Shown one piece after another: positions 6,841 through 18,315 of a DNA stretch of 20,333 nucleotides. A program made the position numbers and the translations under genes. The stretch covers positions 1 through 20,333 of the IMG/VR virus record IMGVR_UViG_3300044695_004132; one strand, written 5' to 3'. This DNA comes from a virus. Below the pieces are notes generated by a model. It had not been told where the DNA came from and did not search any database. It worked only from the letters and a program-made list of their open reading frames with translations. Each line of letters opens with the position of its first letter. Positions within the stretch are counted from its first letter, which is position 1.

Positions 6841-7395
6841 TTACAAACCCATATCGTTGTATATTATTGGAGACCTTTTGTCTTTTTCCATTGAGTGCCA
6901 CATTGCCATGGTGTACCTTTTACCTCTAGTTATTTTTTTTACAGAGTGCGAGTATTCTGTTCCACCAGACGGGAATGTTACGATGTCACCTGCTTTTGGC
7001 TTGTATAGAAAATCTTGATTTGGGAAGTATAACTCTCCACCAGAATAGTTATCATTTAAATACAAAACAGAACTAAACTGAACAAACTCATATCCAGAAT
7101 GAGAGTCTATGTGCTTGCCAGCATAGGACCCCTCTTCCCATAAAGATAGGACAGCACTTACCGTGTAAAGTTCTGGGATAAATCCATTATTGTTTTTATT
7201 TAGTTTATTTACAATTTCAGAATACTTGCACAATAAAGACACCACGCTCCTGTCTTCGGGAGCAACTAGGACATATGGGTTATCCTCAAAAGGAACAAGT
7301 TGGCCGTTATCATAAAAAGAGTCAATAAGATTTATTCCAAGGTCACAATCTTTTTTTGAAACCTTTAGATCATTAATAACTATTCTATGTGAAAT
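6841..7395 (-). CDS. 2-oxoglutarate/Fe(II)-dependent oxygenase, full-length form without an ordinary start codon
   Basis: A double-stranded β-helix dioxygenase (P4Hc-like). Counting from an ATT at 7395, the metal ligands are His95-x-Asp97 (KHIDSH) and His150 (EYSH), with Arg160 (RGKRYTM) for 2-oxoglutarate. The LNDNYSGGELYFP block between them is the family's core turn. The frame is open back to the reductase stop at 7402-7400 and reads as convincing protein (RIVINDLKVSKKDCDLG, LVPFEDNPYVLVAPEDRSV), yet it has no ATG, GTG, TTG or CTG before a GTG at 7245. An ATT at 7395 lies 7 bases after AGGA, so a rare ATT start or coupled reinitiation is plausible. The fallback is the pair GTG 7245 / GTG 7242 behind AGGAG, giving about 134 residues that keep all catalytic residues. 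I give the longer form; the true 5' end is uncertain. Confidence 0.75.
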   Translation of the reverse strand: MSHRIVINDLKVSKKDCDLGINLIDSFYDNGQLVPFEDNPYVLVAPEDRSVVSLLCKYSEIVNKLNKNNNGFIPELYTVSAVLSLWEEGSYAGKHIDSHSGYEFVQFSSVLYLNDNYSGGELYFPNQDFLYKPKAGDIVTFPSGGTEYSHSVKKITRGKRYTMAMWHSMEKDKRSPIIYNDMGL

Positions 7396-9519: not shown

Positions 9520-10239
9520 TTAGTTAAAATTCTTTTTTTCCCAAGCCCACTTGCGATATGCATTTGGATATAGGCCTGCTCCCTTTTTTCTTTGATCAGA
9601 GATAGCGTCTGGATCATTGTGCATATTAATATCCATTTCCCAAGAATCTCTTTTGAATGGTATTACCTGAAGTATTGGTGTCCCTTGCTTTATCACCCCA
9701 TCAAAATCTTTTTCCAAAAAGAATGAGTTTAGTCCAGCAGTTAAAAACTTGTCTGTATCTACTACTGCCTCTATTGCTTTAATAGGAATATTTGATTGAT
9801 GAATGGGAGATGTAAAGAATGAACTATATCCTTTAGGAGTTCTAGTCATCCACATTGGATTAATCCTAAGTAGGTCATCTACATAAAAATTAGACTTAGA
9901 TGGATAATGAGATATATGTTCTGAAGAGTGCCAGTTAATCATTATATCTTTAACAAAAGAAAACTCTTCTGAAATACTCCACTCAATTTTTTTATTTTTA
10001 GTATTTAGATAAAGATCAACTGGCATCCTTAACAAATATCCCATAGTCATTGCATCAAAAAATGGCAAACATTTTTTTACAGTTAAGTTTAGGTTTCTGT
10101 CTTCATTTTCTTGGCTAAAAGAAGAAGGCTGATCTTTATACCAGGCAGGTGATGTTTCCTGTGCAGAAGTTGGGTGTGGAAAATTATACTCAAAACCTTT
10201 TGTTGGCAATGGTATAAACTCAATTTTATTTGTTAACAC
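9520..10239 (-). CDS. Phage protein of a DUF6065-like family (copy 3 of 3 in the window), function unknown
   Basis: The protein has 239 residues and no known activity. It shares a clear pattern with the product of 15772-16539: PAWYK (about 31-35), KCLPFFDAMTMGYLLRMPVDL (about 56-76; C-x-P, D-A, G-Y and P-x-D-L in both), PKGYSSFFTSP (135-145), VVDTDKF (159-165), GTPILQVIPFKRDSW (186-200) and a C-terminal Y-x5-W motif. The assignment to DUF6065 is from memory of the family pattern and is tentative. It lies next to an oxygenase gene (10286-10915), as do both other copies. The start is a GTG at 10239 with GAGGG five bases away. The gap of 46 bases upstream holds a weak TATAGT -10-like element. 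Confidence 0.7.
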   Translation of the reverse strand: MLTNKIEFIPLPTKGFEYNFPHPTSAQETSPAWYKDQPSSFSQENEDRNLNLTVKKCLPFFDAMTMGYLLRMPVDLYLNTKNKKIEWSISEEFSFVKDIMINWHSSEHISHYPSKSNFYVDDLLRINPMWMTRTPKGYSSFFTSPIHQSNIPIKAIEAVVDTDKFLTAGLNSFFLEKDFDGVIKQGTPILQVIPFKRDSWEMDINMHNDPDAISDQRKKGAGLYPNAYRKWAWEKKNFN

Positions 10240-10285: not shown

Positions 10286-10915
10286 TTAATGAATCCAGTG
10301 CTGCGGAACCATAATCTTTTCACCACTCTTTACTAGGTGCGCTGTGTGGTGATATGGTGGTGATGGAGGAAACACTATAATGCTTCCTGCTTTTGGCTTT
10401 ACAGCAAAAGTATAGTTACCATTCTTTTCCGCTTCTGCAAAATCTGACTCTGGACTAGCCTGATTTAATACACCGTCTGGTGATGCTATAGTAAAAGATA
10501 TTTCTCCACCTTCGTAGTCATCATTAAGATACATCACAAAAGAAACCTTAAGTCTTTCGTCACCCTCTTGCTGATCAAAGTGTGCACCCATGAATGTTCC
10601 TGGCTGATACTTTTTAATTGGGTATTGAGGAAACAACTTTGGCTCATCTGTTATGCCCTGAGCCTTAGCATAATCTCTTGCTACATCATCAAATGCTTTT
10701 TGCAAAGTATCGTAAATGTACTTATTTTTTTCATCTGTTTCTGATGTCAAAGCAATAGTCTTATCTGTTCCATAGACGTAGTGCTGACCACTACAAGCCA
10801 TCCACTCGCCCCAAGGGTCTTGATTATCGTTTTCAATTGCCTCAACAAGTTTTTTTGGGTCTTCAATTACGTTTGTGTAATAGTAAACCTTTTCCTCAAG
10901 TATTTCTCTGTTCAT
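10286..10915 (-). CDS. 2-oxoglutarate/Fe(II)-dependent oxygenase with Lys at the 2-oxoglutarate site
   Basis: A 209-residue P4Hc-like dioxygenase. Iron ligands are His112-x-Asp114 (GAHFDQ) and His190 (YHHTAH); Lys200 (GEKIMV) stands ten residues after the distal His, where most relatives here have Arg. Collagen prolyl 4-hydroxylase also has Lys at this spot. The core turn YLNDDYEGGEISF is at about 129-141. It is followed by an extra loop of about 25 residues (about 143-168, acidic and Ser/Pro-rich) absent from the neighbours, which may shape substrate choice. The enzyme would hydroxylate a protein or small molecule with O2 and 2-oxoglutarate; the substrate is unknown. AAGGAG lies 7 bases before the ATG and overlaps the stop of the gene upstream. 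Confidence 0.88.
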   Translation of the reverse strand: MNREILEEKVYYYTNVIEDPKKLVEAIENDNQDPWGEWMACSGQHYVYGTDKTIALTSETDEKNKYIYDTLQKAFDDVARDYAKAQGITDEPKLFPQYPIKKYQPGTFMGAHFDQQEGDERLKVSFVMYLNDDYEGGEISFTIASPDGVLNQASPESDFAEAEKNGNYTFAVKPKAGSIIVFPPSPPYHHTAHLVKSGEKIMVPQHWIH

Positions 10916-11589: not shown

Positions 11590-12336
11590 TTATAGGTCAC
11601 CTGCCTTGTACTTATTACCATCGGCATCAAGTTTCCACCCTTGCTTTAACAACTCTTGCCATTCTGCTCTTTCAATTTCTTGTTTTGCTCTGGTTTCTTT
11701 CATTTCTTCTGCCCAAGCATCTCTTAGTTCTTGTGGATAAGCATCTTCTTCTCTATCGTCCCAGAAAGAACCTATGGTGTATCTGACTCCACTAGTTATA
11801 AGAGTTACTTCGTGCATATTGTTAAATCCCCCGTCAAATGCAGCAAGCATTCCGACTTTAGGCTGCAGGCTTATGTCTTGGTCTGGAAACTGCAACATCC
11901 CGCCCTCAAAATCATCGTTCAAATATAAAAAGGCTGCATATCTACTTCTGGTAAAAGCACCAGAATGGCCGTGCTCATCTGTGTTGTCAGAATGTTTTCT
12001 TGCATATGCTCCAGGCTCCCACTTTTGTGTATGGTAACCAATTTGAGAAATAATTTTTGGATCAAGATCATGTACGCTTGCAACAGCATCAATAATGCCC
12101 TGCTTTATTTGTGAGAATATGTTACTTGGTAACCCTTCATTTTCTACATGCTCGTCATTGTCTTGTGGCAATACTGAAGAGTAGGACTCGTAAAATGATA
12201 TTGGCATCCATGTAATTAATCCAAGTTCGGCATGCTTGTCTAATACCTTTACAAGTTTTGCAGCAGTTTCTGCATCAATAAAGTTTTCATAAACAACTAT
12301 ATCCTTTGTTATTCTTTTTTTGTTTTCTAGATTCAT
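11590..12336 (-). CDS. 2-oxoglutarate/Fe(II)-dependent oxygenase
   Basis: The protein has 248 residues. Catalytic residues are His115-x-Asp117 (RKHSDN), His175 (NMHEVT) and Arg185 (GVRYTIGSF), with the core turn YLNDDFEGGMLQFPDQD at about 138-154. A charged helical tail (about 200-235, Glu/Arg/Lys/Trp-rich) follows the β-helix and is not found in the neighbours; it could mediate oligomerisation or partner binding. The ATG overlaps the previous stop (ATGA), and AAGGAG lies 10 bases upstream. The substrate is unknown; the P4Hc-like architecture favours a peptide or a small amino-acid-like substrate, which is inference. Confidence 0.88.
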   Translation of the reverse strand: MNLENKKRITKDIVVYENFIDAETAAKLVKVLDKHAELGLITWMPISFYESYSSVLPQDNDEHVENEGLPSNIFSQIKQGIIDAVASVHDLDPKIISQIGYHTQKWEPGAYARKHSDNTDEHGHSGAFTRSRYAAFLYLNDDFEGGMLQFPDQDISLQPKVGMLAAFDGGFNNMHEVTLITSGVRYTIGSFWDDREEDAYPQELRDAWAEEMKETRAKQEIERAEWQELLKQGWKLDADGNKYKAGDL

Positions 12337-13211
12337 CTTAGCCTCACTCCTTCTGGTATTTCAAATCTATTTGGGATTATCTTATTATACTCCTGCATTA
12401 TGTTATTTTGCATACTTGCCCAAACCTCTTTTCCAAACTCATTTTCTTTGTCAAACCACTCTTGACTTCCTACGCTATACTTTCTCCAATACATCCTAGC
12501 AAAATATTTTTCGTTCTCATAAGATGGGAAAACTCCATGAAGGTATACGGTATCTCCTTTTTTTAGTACTTCTGGATGGCCAGAAGGAAACAACAGCCAG
12601 TCTCCTGCTTCTGGCTTATACTTTATAAGTTCTCCGTTTACAAAAAAATCAACTTCTCCTCCGACATAATCTTCGTTAAAATATGCATTTGCCGTTATAG
12701 CAAACTTATATCCTGGGCTAGGTATTGGCTCTCTTATAAAATCAGAATGATAGGTCATAGACATTCTCTCTGGCATGTTTTTGTGATACTTAGAAATTGA
12801 TGGACCATACATTTGCCACAAAGGAACAGAGTCTCCGTCTTTTGTTTGTATGGTTTCTGTTTTATCAAAATCAAAATCTTTTCCAAATTTTGAAATATAG
12901 TGACCCGTAACCTTGTCAAAACCTTTTGCTAACTCTAGTAAAAAATATTTCTGATCCTCTTGTACTTCGTTGTGCGTTTCTATAGTCTGTATATTCTCAT
13001 AACTCCAGTTTTTACCAAAAAATTCTCCTACTGGATAGTTTATGTAATGACCAAAGTGAGACCATTCAGACCACTCTCCAAAAATTTGATCAACTTCAGT
13101 CTCTGAAGAATTCTTTAATATCTCATAAATTTTTTCTGGATCTTCAAAGACATTTTTGTATACAAGAATATTGGGATATATCTCTACAAAGTCAATATCT
13201 TTATCTGTCAT
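12333..13211 (-). CDS. 2-oxoglutarate/Fe(II)-dependent oxygenase, the longest of the set
   Basis: The protein has 292 residues. His155-x-Asp157 (TYHSDF), His225 (YLHGVF) and Arg239 (KYFARMYW) form the catalytic set. The distal His to Arg distance is 14, against 10-11 in the others, because of a longer loop (PSYENEK). The core turn YFNEDYVGGEVDFFVNG is at about 177-193. The N-terminal region is long, with aromatic segments (GEWSEWSHFGHYINYP). It is joined to both neighbours by ATGA overlaps (13211-13208 and 12336-12333), so five oxygenase genes from 13882 to 10286 read as one operon. Confidence 0.87.
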   Translation of the reverse strand: MTDKDIDFVEIYPNILVYKNVFEDPEKIYEILKNSSETEVDQIFGEWSEWSHFGHYINYPVGEFFGKNWSYENIQTIETHNEVQEDQKYFLLELAKGFDKVTGHYISKFGKDFDFDKTETIQTKDGDSVPLWQMYGPSISKYHKNMPERMSMTYHSDFIREPIPSPGYKFAITANAYFNEDYVGGEVDFFVNGELIKYKPEAGDWLLFPSGHPEVLKKGDTVYLHGVFPSYENEKYFARMYWRKYSVGSQEWFDKENEFGKEVWASMQNNIMQEYNKIIPNRFEIPEGVRLR

Positions 13212-13882
13212 GGCTGTCTGTCACCAGTATGCTTAACAATTTCCCAAAAAAATGGGCAGGTAAATCTAAGGCCACTCTTTATTTCTGTTACTCCATGAAT
13301 ATAGTTTTTATCTCCAGGGAAAAAATATGCTGCGCCCTTCTTAGGTTTAAACTGAACATCTTGAAGTGGAAAGTATAGTTCTCCACCCTCATAATCATCA
13401 TTTAAGTAAAACAAACTTGATAGATCGTAATTTGGAAAATCATTAGGAAGACCAGCATCTGGTCCTTCATGAAGTTCCTTGTCAGCATGTGGTTTTTGAA
13501 ATTGCCCTGGCAGCCACTTTACAATTGTTGTTCCTGTTGGCACAACCTCAACCTTGTAGAACTCTTCGACAATTGGCTTTAGTCTTTGAAACAATCCCGC
13601 AATAACTGGGGCAATGGCTGGATCATTTTTGTCTAGAGTTGGACTAGTTGCAACTCTGTCTTTCCAGTAATCTGAGTCATAAACGACTGTTCCGTTTTCA
13701 TTTACATGGCTTTCTGTTACATCCCAAATAGTTAAAGACTTCGCAGCCTTTTCTAAAAAGTCTATTTCCTCTTGAGTCATAAAGTTTTCTAACTCAACGA
13801 TCATATCTTTACTGCTTCCAAACCATCCAGAAGGTGTCATAGACGGCTTTCTTACTACAACAGAGGCATTTATATTTTCCAT
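13208..13882 (-). CDS. 2-oxoglutarate/Fe(II)-dependent oxygenase, apparently leaderless and first of a five-oxygenase run
   Basis: The protein has 224 residues. The catalytic set is His132-x-Asp134 (KPHADK), His196 (YIHGV) and Arg206 (GLRFTCPFFW), and the core turn is YLNDDYEGGELYFPLQD (about 159-175). An acidic Pro/Gly insertion (HEGPDAGLPNDFPNYD, about 138-153) follows the HxD motif. The ATG at 13882 has no Shine-Dalgarno; the TGATATAAT promoter ends 7 bases upstream, so the transcript probably begins at the start codon. This is the only gene of the block separated from its upstream neighbour (by 29 bases), which marks the head of a sub-operon. Confidence 0.88.
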   Translation of the reverse strand: MENINASVVVRKPSMTPSGWFGSSKDMIVELENFMTQEEIDFLEKAAKSLTIWDVTESHVNENGTVVYDSDYWKDRVATSPTLDKNDPAIAPVIAGLFQRLKPIVEEFYKVEVVPTGTTIVKWLPGQFQKPHADKELHEGPDAGLPNDFPNYDLSSLFYLNDDYEGGELYFPLQDVQFKPKKGAAYFFPGDKNYIHGVTEIKSGLRFTCPFFWEIVKHTGDRQP

Positions 13883-13911: not shown

Positions 13912-14367
13912 CTACAATTTCCTGTCTATTTCTAGTTGTTTTAAAAATCTTTCTATGTTGAATCTCCAATTATCTTTTGCAAAAGAGGTTACAATTTTAA
14001 TACACGTCTCCTCATAATCTTCTTTGCTTAGTTTATCTTTTAAACCGTGAAGCGCTTCCACAGTATCTATGTAGTTTTGTCTAACAAAAGATGGGTCTCC
14101 TGCATGATTTCTTTTTAAAACCTTTGTAAGTGTATTTCCAGATGGTTGGTACAAAGATACCGTCAGATATTCTTTAGCAAAGCCTGCGTCTTGATACATC
14201 TCGTACCCTTCTAGTGCTTGCTCAATATTGTCAAAAGAAATTATTGACCTTACTGGAGACTCTCCATCTCTAGAAACTGTTATTATGTAGTGACCTACTC
14301 TTCCTTCTTTTGCATTTGCAACATAATCATTAACCATGTCGTCATGTGTCATATTTAGTTCGCTCAT
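13912..14367 (-). CDS. Hypothetical protein of unknown function
   Basis: A 151-residue protein I do not recognise. The first two thirds look α/β (GHYIITVSRDGE, SIISFDNIEQALEGYEMYQ, EYLTVSLYQPSG); the last third is helical and charged (LHGLKDKLSKEDYEETCIKIV, WRFNIERFLKQLEIDRKL). It has one cysteine and no signal peptide, membrane segment or known catalytic motif. Its ATG overlaps the stop of the DUF6065-like gene (TAATG), so it is translated together with that gene and ends the first sub-operon of the oxygenase block. The N-terminal pattern resembles small accessory proteins that pair with an enzyme, but this is only a guess. Confidence 0.75.
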   Translation of the reverse strand: MSELNMTHDDMVNDYVANAKEGRVGHYIITVSRDGESPVRSIISFDNIEQALEGYEMYQDAGFAKEYLTVSLYQPSGNTLTKVLKRNHAGDPSFVRQNYIDTVEALHGLKDKLSKEDYEETCIKIVTSFAKDNWRFNIERFLKQLEIDRKL

Positions 14368-15077
14368 TATTTACCAGTATTATCTTTTACGCTAAGTTTT
14401 AAAGTTTTTACTTCGTGAGACCCTAAAGACTCTTGTTTTTCATTAACAGCATTTCTGTACCAATCTGTCCATTCTCCAGAAGAGTTTAGAATTTGTGCAG
14501 CCTCTCCATATGAAATATTTGCTTCTATTCTTTTTCTGTCTTCATCTTTGTATTCAACTATATCTATTGACGTATTATTTAGTTCTGACAAAGATATTGG
14601 TATTATTGTTGCTAACGGTGTGCCTGATTTAATCAATACCTTTTTGTTTGCAGACTTTGCTTTTATTGCTAGTGGCAAAGGGTTATCATAAAAAGATGTG
14701 CTAATTAAATTAGACATTGTTTCAAAATCTTCATTAAAGTAGTTTACTGGATTGATAGTAAAAAGGCTAACATTTTGTCCTGTTCTAAATATTAACCCAG
14801 TATTAAAACTAATAGATGACTGGCCTCTTCCAGTATACGAGCCTTCTGGTCCAGAGACAATATCGACGTGGTCCTGAGTTTGATCATTTATTCCGTCCCA
14901 CAAAAACTCTATATCTTCTTTGCAAAAAAGGCTCCAACCAACTACGTTTGACTGTGTTACTGGAAAACATCTATATGCGTGACCTTCTGATGTGCTGTCC
15001 ATCCAATCTCTTTTTATAGACATTGGAGCAATATCAAATGGGGCACCATTCATTTTCTCTACTGAGATATCAAACAT
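14367..15077 (-). CDS. DUF6065-like phage protein (copy 2 of 3), function unknown
   Basis: The protein has 236 residues. It carries AYRCFPVTQSNVVGWSL (34-50), where C-x-P and G-W match the C-x-P...G-Y block of the other two copies, then EDIEFLWDG (54-62), a GQNVSLFTINPVNYF segment equivalent to their GYS-x2-F-x-TP block, and SGTPLATIIPI (151-161) equivalent to GTP-x-LQ-x-IPF. The Tyr/Trp C-terminus of the other copies is replaced by a different Ser/Lys-rich tail. It is thus the most divergent member, and probably the one nearest the DUF6065 consensus as I remember it. It overlaps both neighbours by TAATG junctions and follows an oxygenase gene. Confidence 0.68.
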   Translation of the reverse strand: MFDISVEKMNGAPFDIAPMSIKRDWMDSTSEGHAYRCFPVTQSNVVGWSLFCKEDIEFLWDGINDQTQDHVDIVSGPEGSYTGRGQSSISFNTGLIFRTGQNVSLFTINPVNYFNEDFETMSNLISTSFYDNPLPLAIKAKSANKKVLIKSGTPLATIIPISLSELNNTSIDIVEYKDEDRKRIEANISYGEAAQILNSSGEWTDWYRNAVNEKQESLGSHEVKTLKLSVKDNTGK

Positions 15078-15771: not shown

Positions 15772-16539
15772 TTATCTATATTCTCTTCTTGACCATACTT
15801 TATTTTTGTATACCCCGCCATCTGGCTGACGGTAAAACTCCATGTTCTTAACCATTTTATCATAAATTTTAGACTGATCTAAAATTTCTATTTCGTGATC
15901 CCAGTTTTCTCTTTTAAAAGGAAGAATCTGAAGATATGGTGTACCTGCTGGAAGTGTTCCTTCCCATCCTTCAGCAATAAAAAATGGAAAACTTCCAAGA
16001 AGATGAACTTTGTCTGAATCAACTACTCCAGTAGTATTTAAAAATGGAAGATCAAATCTATTCATTGGTGTCATAAACAAAGCACTGTATCCTTCTGGCA
16101 ATTCTAATCCCCAGTCAGCAGACCATGCAAAGTGATATCTATAGTATCCGAGTGGATGCTCAAACTGTGGCATTGGTGGTCTTTGAGTACAAAAATCTTT
16201 ATGTCTTGGATCTTCAACCTTGACATTAATGTTTCCATATGCATCTTTAAAAAAAGTCAAATCGCAGGGAGTCTTAAAAACATAACCAGTTGAAAATGCA
16301 TCCATGATTGCAGGACATGCTTTCCATGTTGGAATCTTTCCGTAGTCATCTTTTGTGCCTTCTTTTGCAACTGGGCAGATTTCTTTTGTTGCTTTATAGT
16401 AATCTCCATTTGGCATTTTTGCAAACCTATCTGCTTCCTTATACCATTCGGGAATTACAGCCTGGGTTGGTCCTGGAACAGAAAGACTATCCTTATTTAG
16501 CCATGGCCTAAATGATGTAAATATTGCAACTAAAGACAC
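15772..16539 (-). CDS. DUF6065-like phage protein (copy 1 of 3), function unknown
   Basis: The protein has 255 residues. Shared blocks with 9520-10239 are PEWYKE (30-35), KACPAIMDAFSTGYVFKTPCDL (73-94), LPEGYSALFMTPMN (147-160), VVDSDK (172-177), GTPYLQILPFKRENW (199-213) and the C-terminal YKNKVWSRREYR. It has an extra segment with Cys55 and Cys75, and more cysteines (five) than its relatives. The start is a GTG whose first bases overlap the TAG of the upstream oxygenase, with AGGA 8 bases away, so translation is coupled to that enzyme. No catalytic motif is visible; possible roles are partner or substrate adaptor of the oxygenase, or an independent virion or metabolic protein. Confidence 0.7.
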   Translation of the reverse strand: MSLVAIFTSFRPWLNKDSLSVPGPTQAVIPEWYKEADRFAKMPNGDYYKATKEICPVAKEGTKDDYGKIPTWKACPAIMDAFSTGYVFKTPCDLTFFKDAYGNINVKVEDPRHKDFCTQRPPMPQFEHPLGYYRYHFAWSADWGLELPEGYSALFMTPMNRFDLPFLNTTGVVDSDKVHLLGSFPFFIAEGWEGTLPAGTPYLQILPFKRENWDHEIEILDQSKIYDKMVKNMEFYRQPDGGVYKNKVWSRREYR

Positions 16540-17331: not shown

Positions 17332-18315
17332 TTATCCGAGTTGTGGATCCCACTTACCTCCACCGAAGGACGGCCCAAAACTTGGGAAGAACGGTGGGAA
17401 GAATGGTGGGAAGAACGGGAAGAATGGGAAGAACGGTGGGAAGAATGGGAAGAACGGGAAGAATGGGAAGAATGGTGGGAAGAACGGGAAGAATGGGAAG
17501 AACGGTGGGAAGAATGGGAAGAACGGGAAGAATGGGAAGAATGGTGGGAAGAATGGGAAGAACGGTGGGAAGAATGGCGGGAAGAACGGGAAGAACGGTG
17601 GGAAGAATGGTGGGAAGAACGGGAAGAATGGCGGGAAGAATGGCGGGAAGAATGGAGCAATAGTAGTTACACTACCAGAGGCAGCAGATGTATCAGAGTT
17701 TCCGTTAGCATTAATTGCATAAACAGTATATGTTTGAGCAGTATTTGCTTCTTGTGAAACAACTACAGATGTTGCATTAAGAGGCCCTCCTCCAGGAGTT
17801 CCTCCTGCAAGGTTAGTCTTACTGTCTGAAGATGCCCAAATATAACCTGAAATAGCCTTTCCACCATTTAGTGGTGCTGACCATGTAACTGTATCTTGGT
17901 TAACTCCTGCAGTTGCACTTGGTGCTGCTGGTGTTGCTGGTCTTGATGTAACAGAAACTGACCCAGTAGAAGAAGAAGATGCTGAAGTTCCAGAAGCATT
18001 TGTTGCGGTAACAGCAAATGTATAAGATGCTGCAGACTTAAGTCCTCCGATAACAACTGGAGAAGATACTCCAGACTGTGTTACAGTAGTACCACTTACT
18101 CCGTCTCCTCCTGAACCAGTTGCAACAAAGGTTGCAGTTACTGTGTAAGAAGTCGCTGGTGGAGATCCTGCTGGCAACTCAAAAGCAACTGATGCTGCTG
18201 CACTGTTAAACGCTCTACCTGTTCCAACATCCGTAGCAGATACGTTTATTGGTGGCTTTGGTTCCAAGAAGTCATTTGCTGCTTGGGACTTTTTACCTAC
18301 TCTTTTGTTTGCCAT
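17332..18315 (-). CDS. Fibronectin III-type protein with a 26-unit Phe-Phe-Pro(-Pro) repeat, probable virion surface protein
   Basis: The protein has 327 residues. After a basic N-terminus come two fibronectin type III-like β-sandwiches: about 20-125 (SYTVTATFVA, then LKSAASYTFAVTATNASGTSASS) and about 127-218 (TVTWSAPLNGG, AQTYTVYAINANGNSDTSAAS). Residues 222-311 consist only of Phe and Pro: 12 FFPP and 14 FFP units. The end is SFGPSFGGGKWDPQLG. There is no signal peptide. AAGGAG stands 9 bases before the ATG, 29 bases after the tail fibre stop, so the two are probably co-transcribed and this is a tail or fibre-associated protein. The repeat is in frame with the FN3 part, which shows it is real and not a shadow. 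It could form a rigid polyproline-like or membrane- or surface-seeking arm; its function is unknown. An intrinsic terminator follows. Confidence 0.82.
   Translation of the reverse strand: MANKRVGKKSQAANDFLEPKPPINVSATDVGTGRAFNSAAASVAFELPAGSPPATSYTVTATFVATGSGGDGVSGTTVTQSGVSSPVVIGGLKSAASYTFAVTATNASGTSASSSSTGSVSVTSRPATPAAPSATAGVNQDTVTWSAPLNGGKAISGYIWASSDSKTNLAGGTPGGGPLNATSVVVSQEANTAQTYTVYAINANGNSDTSAASGSVTTIAPFFPPFFPPFFPFFPPFFPPFFPFFPPFFPPFFPFFPPFFPFFPFFPFFPPFFPFFPFFPPFFPFFPFFPFFPPFFPFFPFFPPFFPPFFPSFGPSFGGGKWDPQLG
17383..17655. repeat. Degenerate short tandem repeat coding for Phe/Pro, all frames open
   Basis: This stretch of 273 bases is built from 9- and 12-base units (TTC TTC CCA/CCG on the coding strand, with or without a second Pro codon). 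Every Phe codon in the 222-311 segment that I checked is TTC, and Pro alternates between CCA and CCG, unlike the TTT-rich usage elsewhere in the window. The plus strand is almost all purine with many GGG runs. Since unit lengths are multiples of three, slippage would change repeat number without a frameshift. The plus-strand readings (WEE/REE- and GKNG-like) are shadows. Confidence 0.9.

Follow-up and report, generated by a model that had tools for sequence, protein, structure and literature searches.

How can a gene be translated when its reading frame holds no standard start codon ahead of its conserved coding sequence? The question is raised by an oxygenase frame (7395-6841, minus strand) in the window, i.e., the whole 20,333-nucleotide stretch of viral DNA analyzed here. 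According to the sequence and its translation, this frame lies directly downstream of a gene for ribonucleotide reductase (RNR; 9430-7400, minus strand), the 3' end of which reads ACA GGA TAA, with the stop codon TAA at 7402-7400. From a TAA at 7413-7411 to its own stop at 6843-6841, the oxygenase frame runs uninterrupted, and between that upstream TAA and a GTG pair (7245 and 7242) it contains no ATG, GTG, TTG or CTG. An ATT codon (7395-7393, minus strand) is found 4 nt past the RNR stop. A 7-nt spacer separates it from AGGA (7406-7403, minus strand), a likely Shine-Dalgarno (SD) sequence within the final RNR codons, and exactly 50 codons (7395-7246, minus strand) run from ATT to the codon preceding GTG 7245 (7245-7243, minus strand), the first standard start in the frame. 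A preliminary description of this DNA had noted the lack of standard starts over 50 open codons and the ATT 7 bases after AGGA, all of which were confirmed, and had offered three options: initiation at a rare ATT by coupling to the reductase, an internal GTG start, or a sequencing error or start mutation. The evidence assembled below argues for the first of these. The frame is very likely a functional 2OG-Fe(II) oxygenase gene with the prolyl-4-hydroxylase (P4H) fold, started at AUU with an SD sequence in the RNR end; its translation is probably coupled to that of RNR and would be expected to be low.

The upstream gene encodes a class II (adenosylcobalamin-dependent) RNR of 676 aa, which matches PF17975 and PF21995 above the cut-off as well as phrog_367, and scores 335.3 bits against TIGR02505, slightly below the cut-off of 340.05. 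Counted from ATT, the downstream frame encodes a 184-aa 2OG-Fe(II) oxygenase of the P4H type, as judged by PF13640 (46.9 bits; cut-off 27), phrog_2297 and a P4H fold match. Its HxD metal-ligand motif (H95 and D97; 7113-7105, minus strand) and distal metal-ligand histidine (H150; 6948-6946, minus strand) are invariant in an alignment of 19 oxygenases, including seven from the window (the paralog 12333-13211 was left out) and eight of the 34 remote relatives described below, 19 of which were inspected. From the P4H fold, we would guess that the enzyme hydroxylates a phage or host protein. In the window as a whole, eight 2OG-Fe(II) oxygenase-like genes lie between 6841 and 17252, seven of which exceed the PF13640 cut-off, the gene at 12333-13211 falling slightly short of it; the same stretch also holds three copies (9520-10239, 14367-15077 and 15772-16539) of phrog_7084, a family of unknown function.

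When viral contigs were scanned with the 184-residue protein, 39 loci were obtained, comprising five close relatives (L009, L010, L011, L012 and L013; 78-95% identity) and 34 remote ones. L012 and L013 end at contig edges before the start and thus provide no start region. L009 and L010 were recovered from separate metagenomes and differ across 700 nt upstream; they were counted as one lineage because they are identical over the gene and 2822 comparable downstream nt. Three distinct start regions are thereby available (the window, L009/L010 and L011), of which the window and L010 are close, and the two other lineages show 93% and 78% protein identity to the window oxygenase. ATT, AGGA, and the 7-nt and 4-nt spacings are identical in all three, the latter keeping the RNR stop and ATT 4 nt apart, as in a coupled pair. 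This conservation, together with the aligned start of a distant homolog, supports the suggestion of a rare ATT start. In none of the close relatives does an ATG replace ATT 7395 or the GTG pair, the finding that the preliminary description had named as contrary evidence; the distant cyanophage homolog has GTG at the 7395 position. A DNA pattern scan for the junction in viral contigs recovered the same three contigs. Neither a profile search, nor the start-region DNA pattern, nor a second protein query revealed a further close-relative start region in viral contigs, the last adding two remote loci, L146 and L147 (45% over 66 residues). Genome contigs yielded one remote match (33% over 57 residues), and annotated phage records gave no DNA-level match.

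Of the ATG-like codons from the upstream in-frame stop to codon 4, only ATT is common to all three sequences. Its retention by itself is weak evidence, because ATT is used more often for Ile than any other codon (193 of 368 Ile codons in 16 window genes) and, of seven internal positions occupied by Ile in all three sequences, two keep a single codon. The spacer is ordinary, since the distance from SD 4-mer to ATG peaks at 7-8 nt in 321 distinct ATG upstream regions from these phages. Frame openness alone is modest evidence, because the 50-codon opening of the window was kept in 2.0% of 20,000 simulations under an order-1 base make-up model, and the 42-codon stretch of L010 and the 29-codon stretch of L011 stayed open in 4.8% and 14%, respectively. 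No mRNA structure beyond that of shuffles was detected over the oxygenase start (z 0.74, 0.75 and 1.35). Three start regions are few, and the case for an AUU start rests on a combination of evidence, in which the lack of a standard start before the conserved coding sequence and a conserved ATT at SD distance are joined by selection, fold and homology.

The alternative that survives best is initiation at an internal standard start (GTG 7245 in the window), which would give a shorter protein keeping the HxD...H core and leave the upstream frame untranslated. The PF13640 match does lie wholly within this short form, which scores 47.7 bits as against 46.9 for the full-length protein, and the start of the gene is less constrained, with dN/dS of 0.16-0.45 over the first 50 codons vs. 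0.03-0.11 over the rest. Yet the lineages do not agree in their first standard start, which is GTG at codon 51 in the window, TTG at codon 43 in L010, ATG at codon 30 in L011 and TTG at codon 43 in the partial L013. The TTG is thus common to L010 and L013 and missing from the window and L011, and no standard start is present in all. Codons 2-29, which lie ahead of every standard start, are moreover constrained as protein, with pN/pS of 0.18 (window-L010), 0.32 (window-L011) and 0.30 (L010-L011). Amino-acid-changing differences there are proportionally fewer than silent ones (one-sided Fisher p 0.0054, 0.006 and 0.00036 for the same pairs, values that are not independent, as the three pairs share branches). 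The window-L013 comparison, over codons 21-42, gave p 0.022, and L011-L013 fell short of significance (p about 0.3); L009, which equals L010 over the gene, was omitted from the rate comparison. The other two frames carry stops across this N-terminal stretch in all three sequences. Judging from these substitution patterns, the region of codons 2-29 is very probably translated; if so, initiation must take place before codon 30 and without a standard start.

The predicted fold points in the same direction as to position. The model has a pLDDT of 84.6 and a pTM of 0.83, and 10-residue blocks within the first 50 residues range from pLDDT 72 to 96. Predicted there are a strand (5-8), a helix (14-29), a second strand (41-44) and the start of a helix (49-68), and the short form would be without the first three of these. 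Of the 50 structural alignments listed, 48 start from residue 1 of the model and two from residue 5, although many represent the same human enzyme and the ranges show no more than the two end points of each alignment. P. putida P4H gave the best structural match, with Z 19.8 and an rmsd of 2.8 across 166 residues. The fold is common to the window oxygenase and prolyl-4-hydroxylases such as P. putida P4H (4j25/4iw3) and PBCV-1 vCPH (5c5t) over about residues 1-171, although identity is only 17-19%.

Distant homologs provide a further reference point for the start. Matches were found in 103 annotated phage records, mostly from Synechococcus phages and each under 60% identity, and phrog_2297 covers oxygenase residues 4-169 by profile positions 3-161 of 163. 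The cyanophage oxygenase family phrog_2297, represented by gp115 of ACG-2014d (NC_026923; AAJ59_gp115), resembles the window oxygenase in length and in the position of its proposed start, the first residue of gp115 aligning with the ATT residue (VRDRIIIADNIISKVDCD against ISHRIVINDLKVSKKDCD). The annotated gp115 start overlaps the stop of the preceding gene; unlike that of the window oxygenase, it is a GTG inside TAGTG, and the two proteins are 31% identical. The ACG-2014b homolog is annotated as starting one residue later, where it aligns with residue 2. As an aside on nomenclature, gp115 (L135 1501-1977) and phrog_2297 are named DNA endonuclease in RefSeq and PHROGs, and leprecan protein in GenBank; the endonuclease label looks wrong because homology supports an oxygenase.

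Because ATT is conserved, codons 2-29 are protein-like, the homolog start is aligned and the fold uses the first 50 residues, an internal GTG start, a recent start loss and a sequencing error all fit badly. The first of these, contradicted by the lineage-specific standard starts and the protein-level selection upstream of them, is in our estimate improbable.

To place this arrangement in context, adjacent genes were surveyed in 120 loci (the window and L009-L127), using non-overlapping long frames that formed 697 adjacent same-strand pairs. Six pairs showed an open extension that lacked a start and measured at least 60 nt; four of these are the oxygenase gene itself (window, L009, L010 and L011). 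The other two, RNR leaders in L111 and L119, were considered as further start-less genes and rejected as false positives, the reductase having its own ATG. Apart from the oxygenase gene, no gene among these 697 pairs looked alike. Reductase ends were also checked in 86 loci and were visible in 85 (L124 was dropped). In 81 of the 85, the ATG of the next gene lies within 40 nt of the reductase end, and the remaining four belong to the ATT oxygenase family; for L059 and L133, where the first standard in-frame codon is a TTG inside the reductase, the downstream ATG was counted. The 81 next genes comprise 61 tail proteins, 16 genes with an oxygenase motif and four unclassified genes, tail proteins being told from chance oxygenase-motif matches by an SNLYA N-terminus (10 cases). 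All 16 of these other oxygenases have ATG starts directly after or overlapping the stop (for example, TAATG in L134 and L120); a motif match in L030 was put down to chance and disregarded. The slot between the reductase and the SNLYAEK tail gene (7400 junction, L048-L127) is empty or holds an oxygenase, of which there are several types, or a small protein that resembles a membrane protein, and it looks like a variable cargo site.

A start codon would be unneeded if a programmed frameshift at the reductase end fused RNR to the oxygenase. In the window and L010, the oxygenase frame does run past the reductase stop without interruption, and in the mobile element IS911, AUU initiation occurs alongside programmed frameshifting, according to a title cited in PMC9523058. 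At the oxygenase junction, in contrast to IS911, no programmed frameshift signal was noticed. In L011, the oxygenase frame is closed by a TAG just before GAT AAA AAC ATT; this leaves only the stop itself and the final sense codon of the reductase as places for a shift, and no re-pairing is apparent, as judged by eye, at GGA TAA. No conserved shift site was seen, again by eye and over three start regions, in the overlap of the two frames, and the nearby ATG of the next gene in 81 of 85 loci also speaks against a fusion, which we consider very improbable. Equally hard to credit is the idea that the start was lost recently or through an assembly error, leaving a gene that is decaying or starts elsewhere. 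ATT is only one base away from ATG, but the same codon occurs in three further contigs, each from a different metagenome and together representing two other lineages, which contradicts the sequencing-error option. The window and L011 have both kept it at a silent divergence of about 1.1 per site (codons 51-174), in a strongly constrained enzyme.

Initiation could in principle occur at another near-standard codon, ATA 7398 or ATA 7383, and AUA is the start of infC in Staphylococcus aureus (PMC13009471). The first of these, the codon before ATT, is present in the window and L010 but reads AAC in L011. The second (codon 5) is found in all three sequences but, at 19 nt from AGGA, lies well beyond the peak of SD distances, so that either choice appears highly unlikely. 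A TATAAT at 7399-7394 overlaps the ATT of the window and may conceivably be a promoter, but the box is absent from L011. Leaderless initiation from this TATAAT was rejected, as distances of 6 or 9 nt fall, by hand count, on TAG or AAT and L011 is without the box.

Those two distances derive from a separate observation on these phages. Among the 321 distinct upstream regions, TAWAAT precedes ATG by exactly 6 nt in 10 cases and by exactly 9 nt in 17, in L048-L127, L009-L013 and the window at 13882 (gene 13208-13882), and none of the 27 has an SD 4-mer in the stretch examined. The spacing suggests that these genes may have leaderless or near-leaderless transcripts, alongside the SD-led genes.

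Initiation at AUU thus remains the preferred explanation. Use of the codon itself we infer from the layout, its conservation, protein-level selection ahead of any standard start and the alignment with the distant homolog start. The proposed sequence of events is as follows. Ribosomes finishing RNR would stop at UAA, 4 nt before AUU, and the AGGA in the last RNR codons, 7 nt from AUU, would position initiation. Either the terminating ribosomes or fresh 30S subunits on the cleared site would then initiate, placing fMet at AUU. Given this layout, oxygenase translation is probably coupled to that of RNR. Re-initiation is reported to occur a few nucleotides from a stop codon and, where an SD sequence is lacking, to be inhibited by extra IF3 (PMC2268962). 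Since AUU is a poor start and is discriminated against by IF3, a low oxygenase level relative to the reductase would be expected, and sensitivity of the oxygenase to IF3 is possible in light of the literature. IF3 is described as repressing non-standard starts (PMC2268962, PMC5472188). In a cell-free survey, more IF3 lowered productive initiation for weak pairs, that of AUU with the CAU anticodon dropping to 31.1% (PMC10158994). ARAGORN found no tRNA, and hence none reading AUU, in the window, a weak negative in a record of only 20.3 kb.

Few non-standard start codons are said to have been characterized experimentally (PMC5472188), although proteomics of Deinococcus deserti reported more than 60 non-standard starts (cited in PMC9523058). 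The infC gene, which starts with ATT in Escherichia coli and ATC in Streptomyces, resembles the oxygenase gene as a functional gene with a non-standard start, and in E. coli it is repressed by IF3 (PMC5472188). However, infC encodes IF3 itself and is autoregulated, whereas the oxygenase gene, which lies immediately downstream of a different coding sequence, specifies a phage enzyme. In another example, the AUU start of E. coli pcnB is said to limit translation (title cited in PMC13009471); unlike the phage oxygenase gene, pcnB is chromosomal. For cvfC1 of S. aureus, AUU and the SD sequence were reported to be conserved among staphylococci, and the start was mapped by retapamulin ribosome profiling (PMC13009471). 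That gene is the first in its operon and has a very strong extended SD sequence, whereas the oxygenase gene follows another and has only AGGA. A literature search limited to open-licence papers found no phage gene with an AUU start.

The three phage sequences offer a comparative case for asking whether poor start codons set phage protein ratios. It is tempting to go further and regard the AUU as a conserved regulatory device that, by linking the oxygenase to reductase translation and to a start rejected by IF3, sets a small oxygenase/reductase ratio and allows more oxygenase whenever infection lowers the free IF3 per ribosome, although we consider this extension rather doubtful. The locus also illustrates a blind spot in annotation: an ORF listing limited to ATG, GTG and TTG starts the gene at three different internal codons and thereby loses 29 to 50 N-terminal residues.

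Two further features were noted in these phages. A long FFPPFFPF repeat, encoded by a degenerate 9/21-base tandem array at 17332-17700 of the window, forms the end of the protein encoded at 17332-18315. In L010, a homolog (2224-2850) of the window oxygenase at 10286-10915 is split by an in-frame TAG, which may be real or an assembly error.
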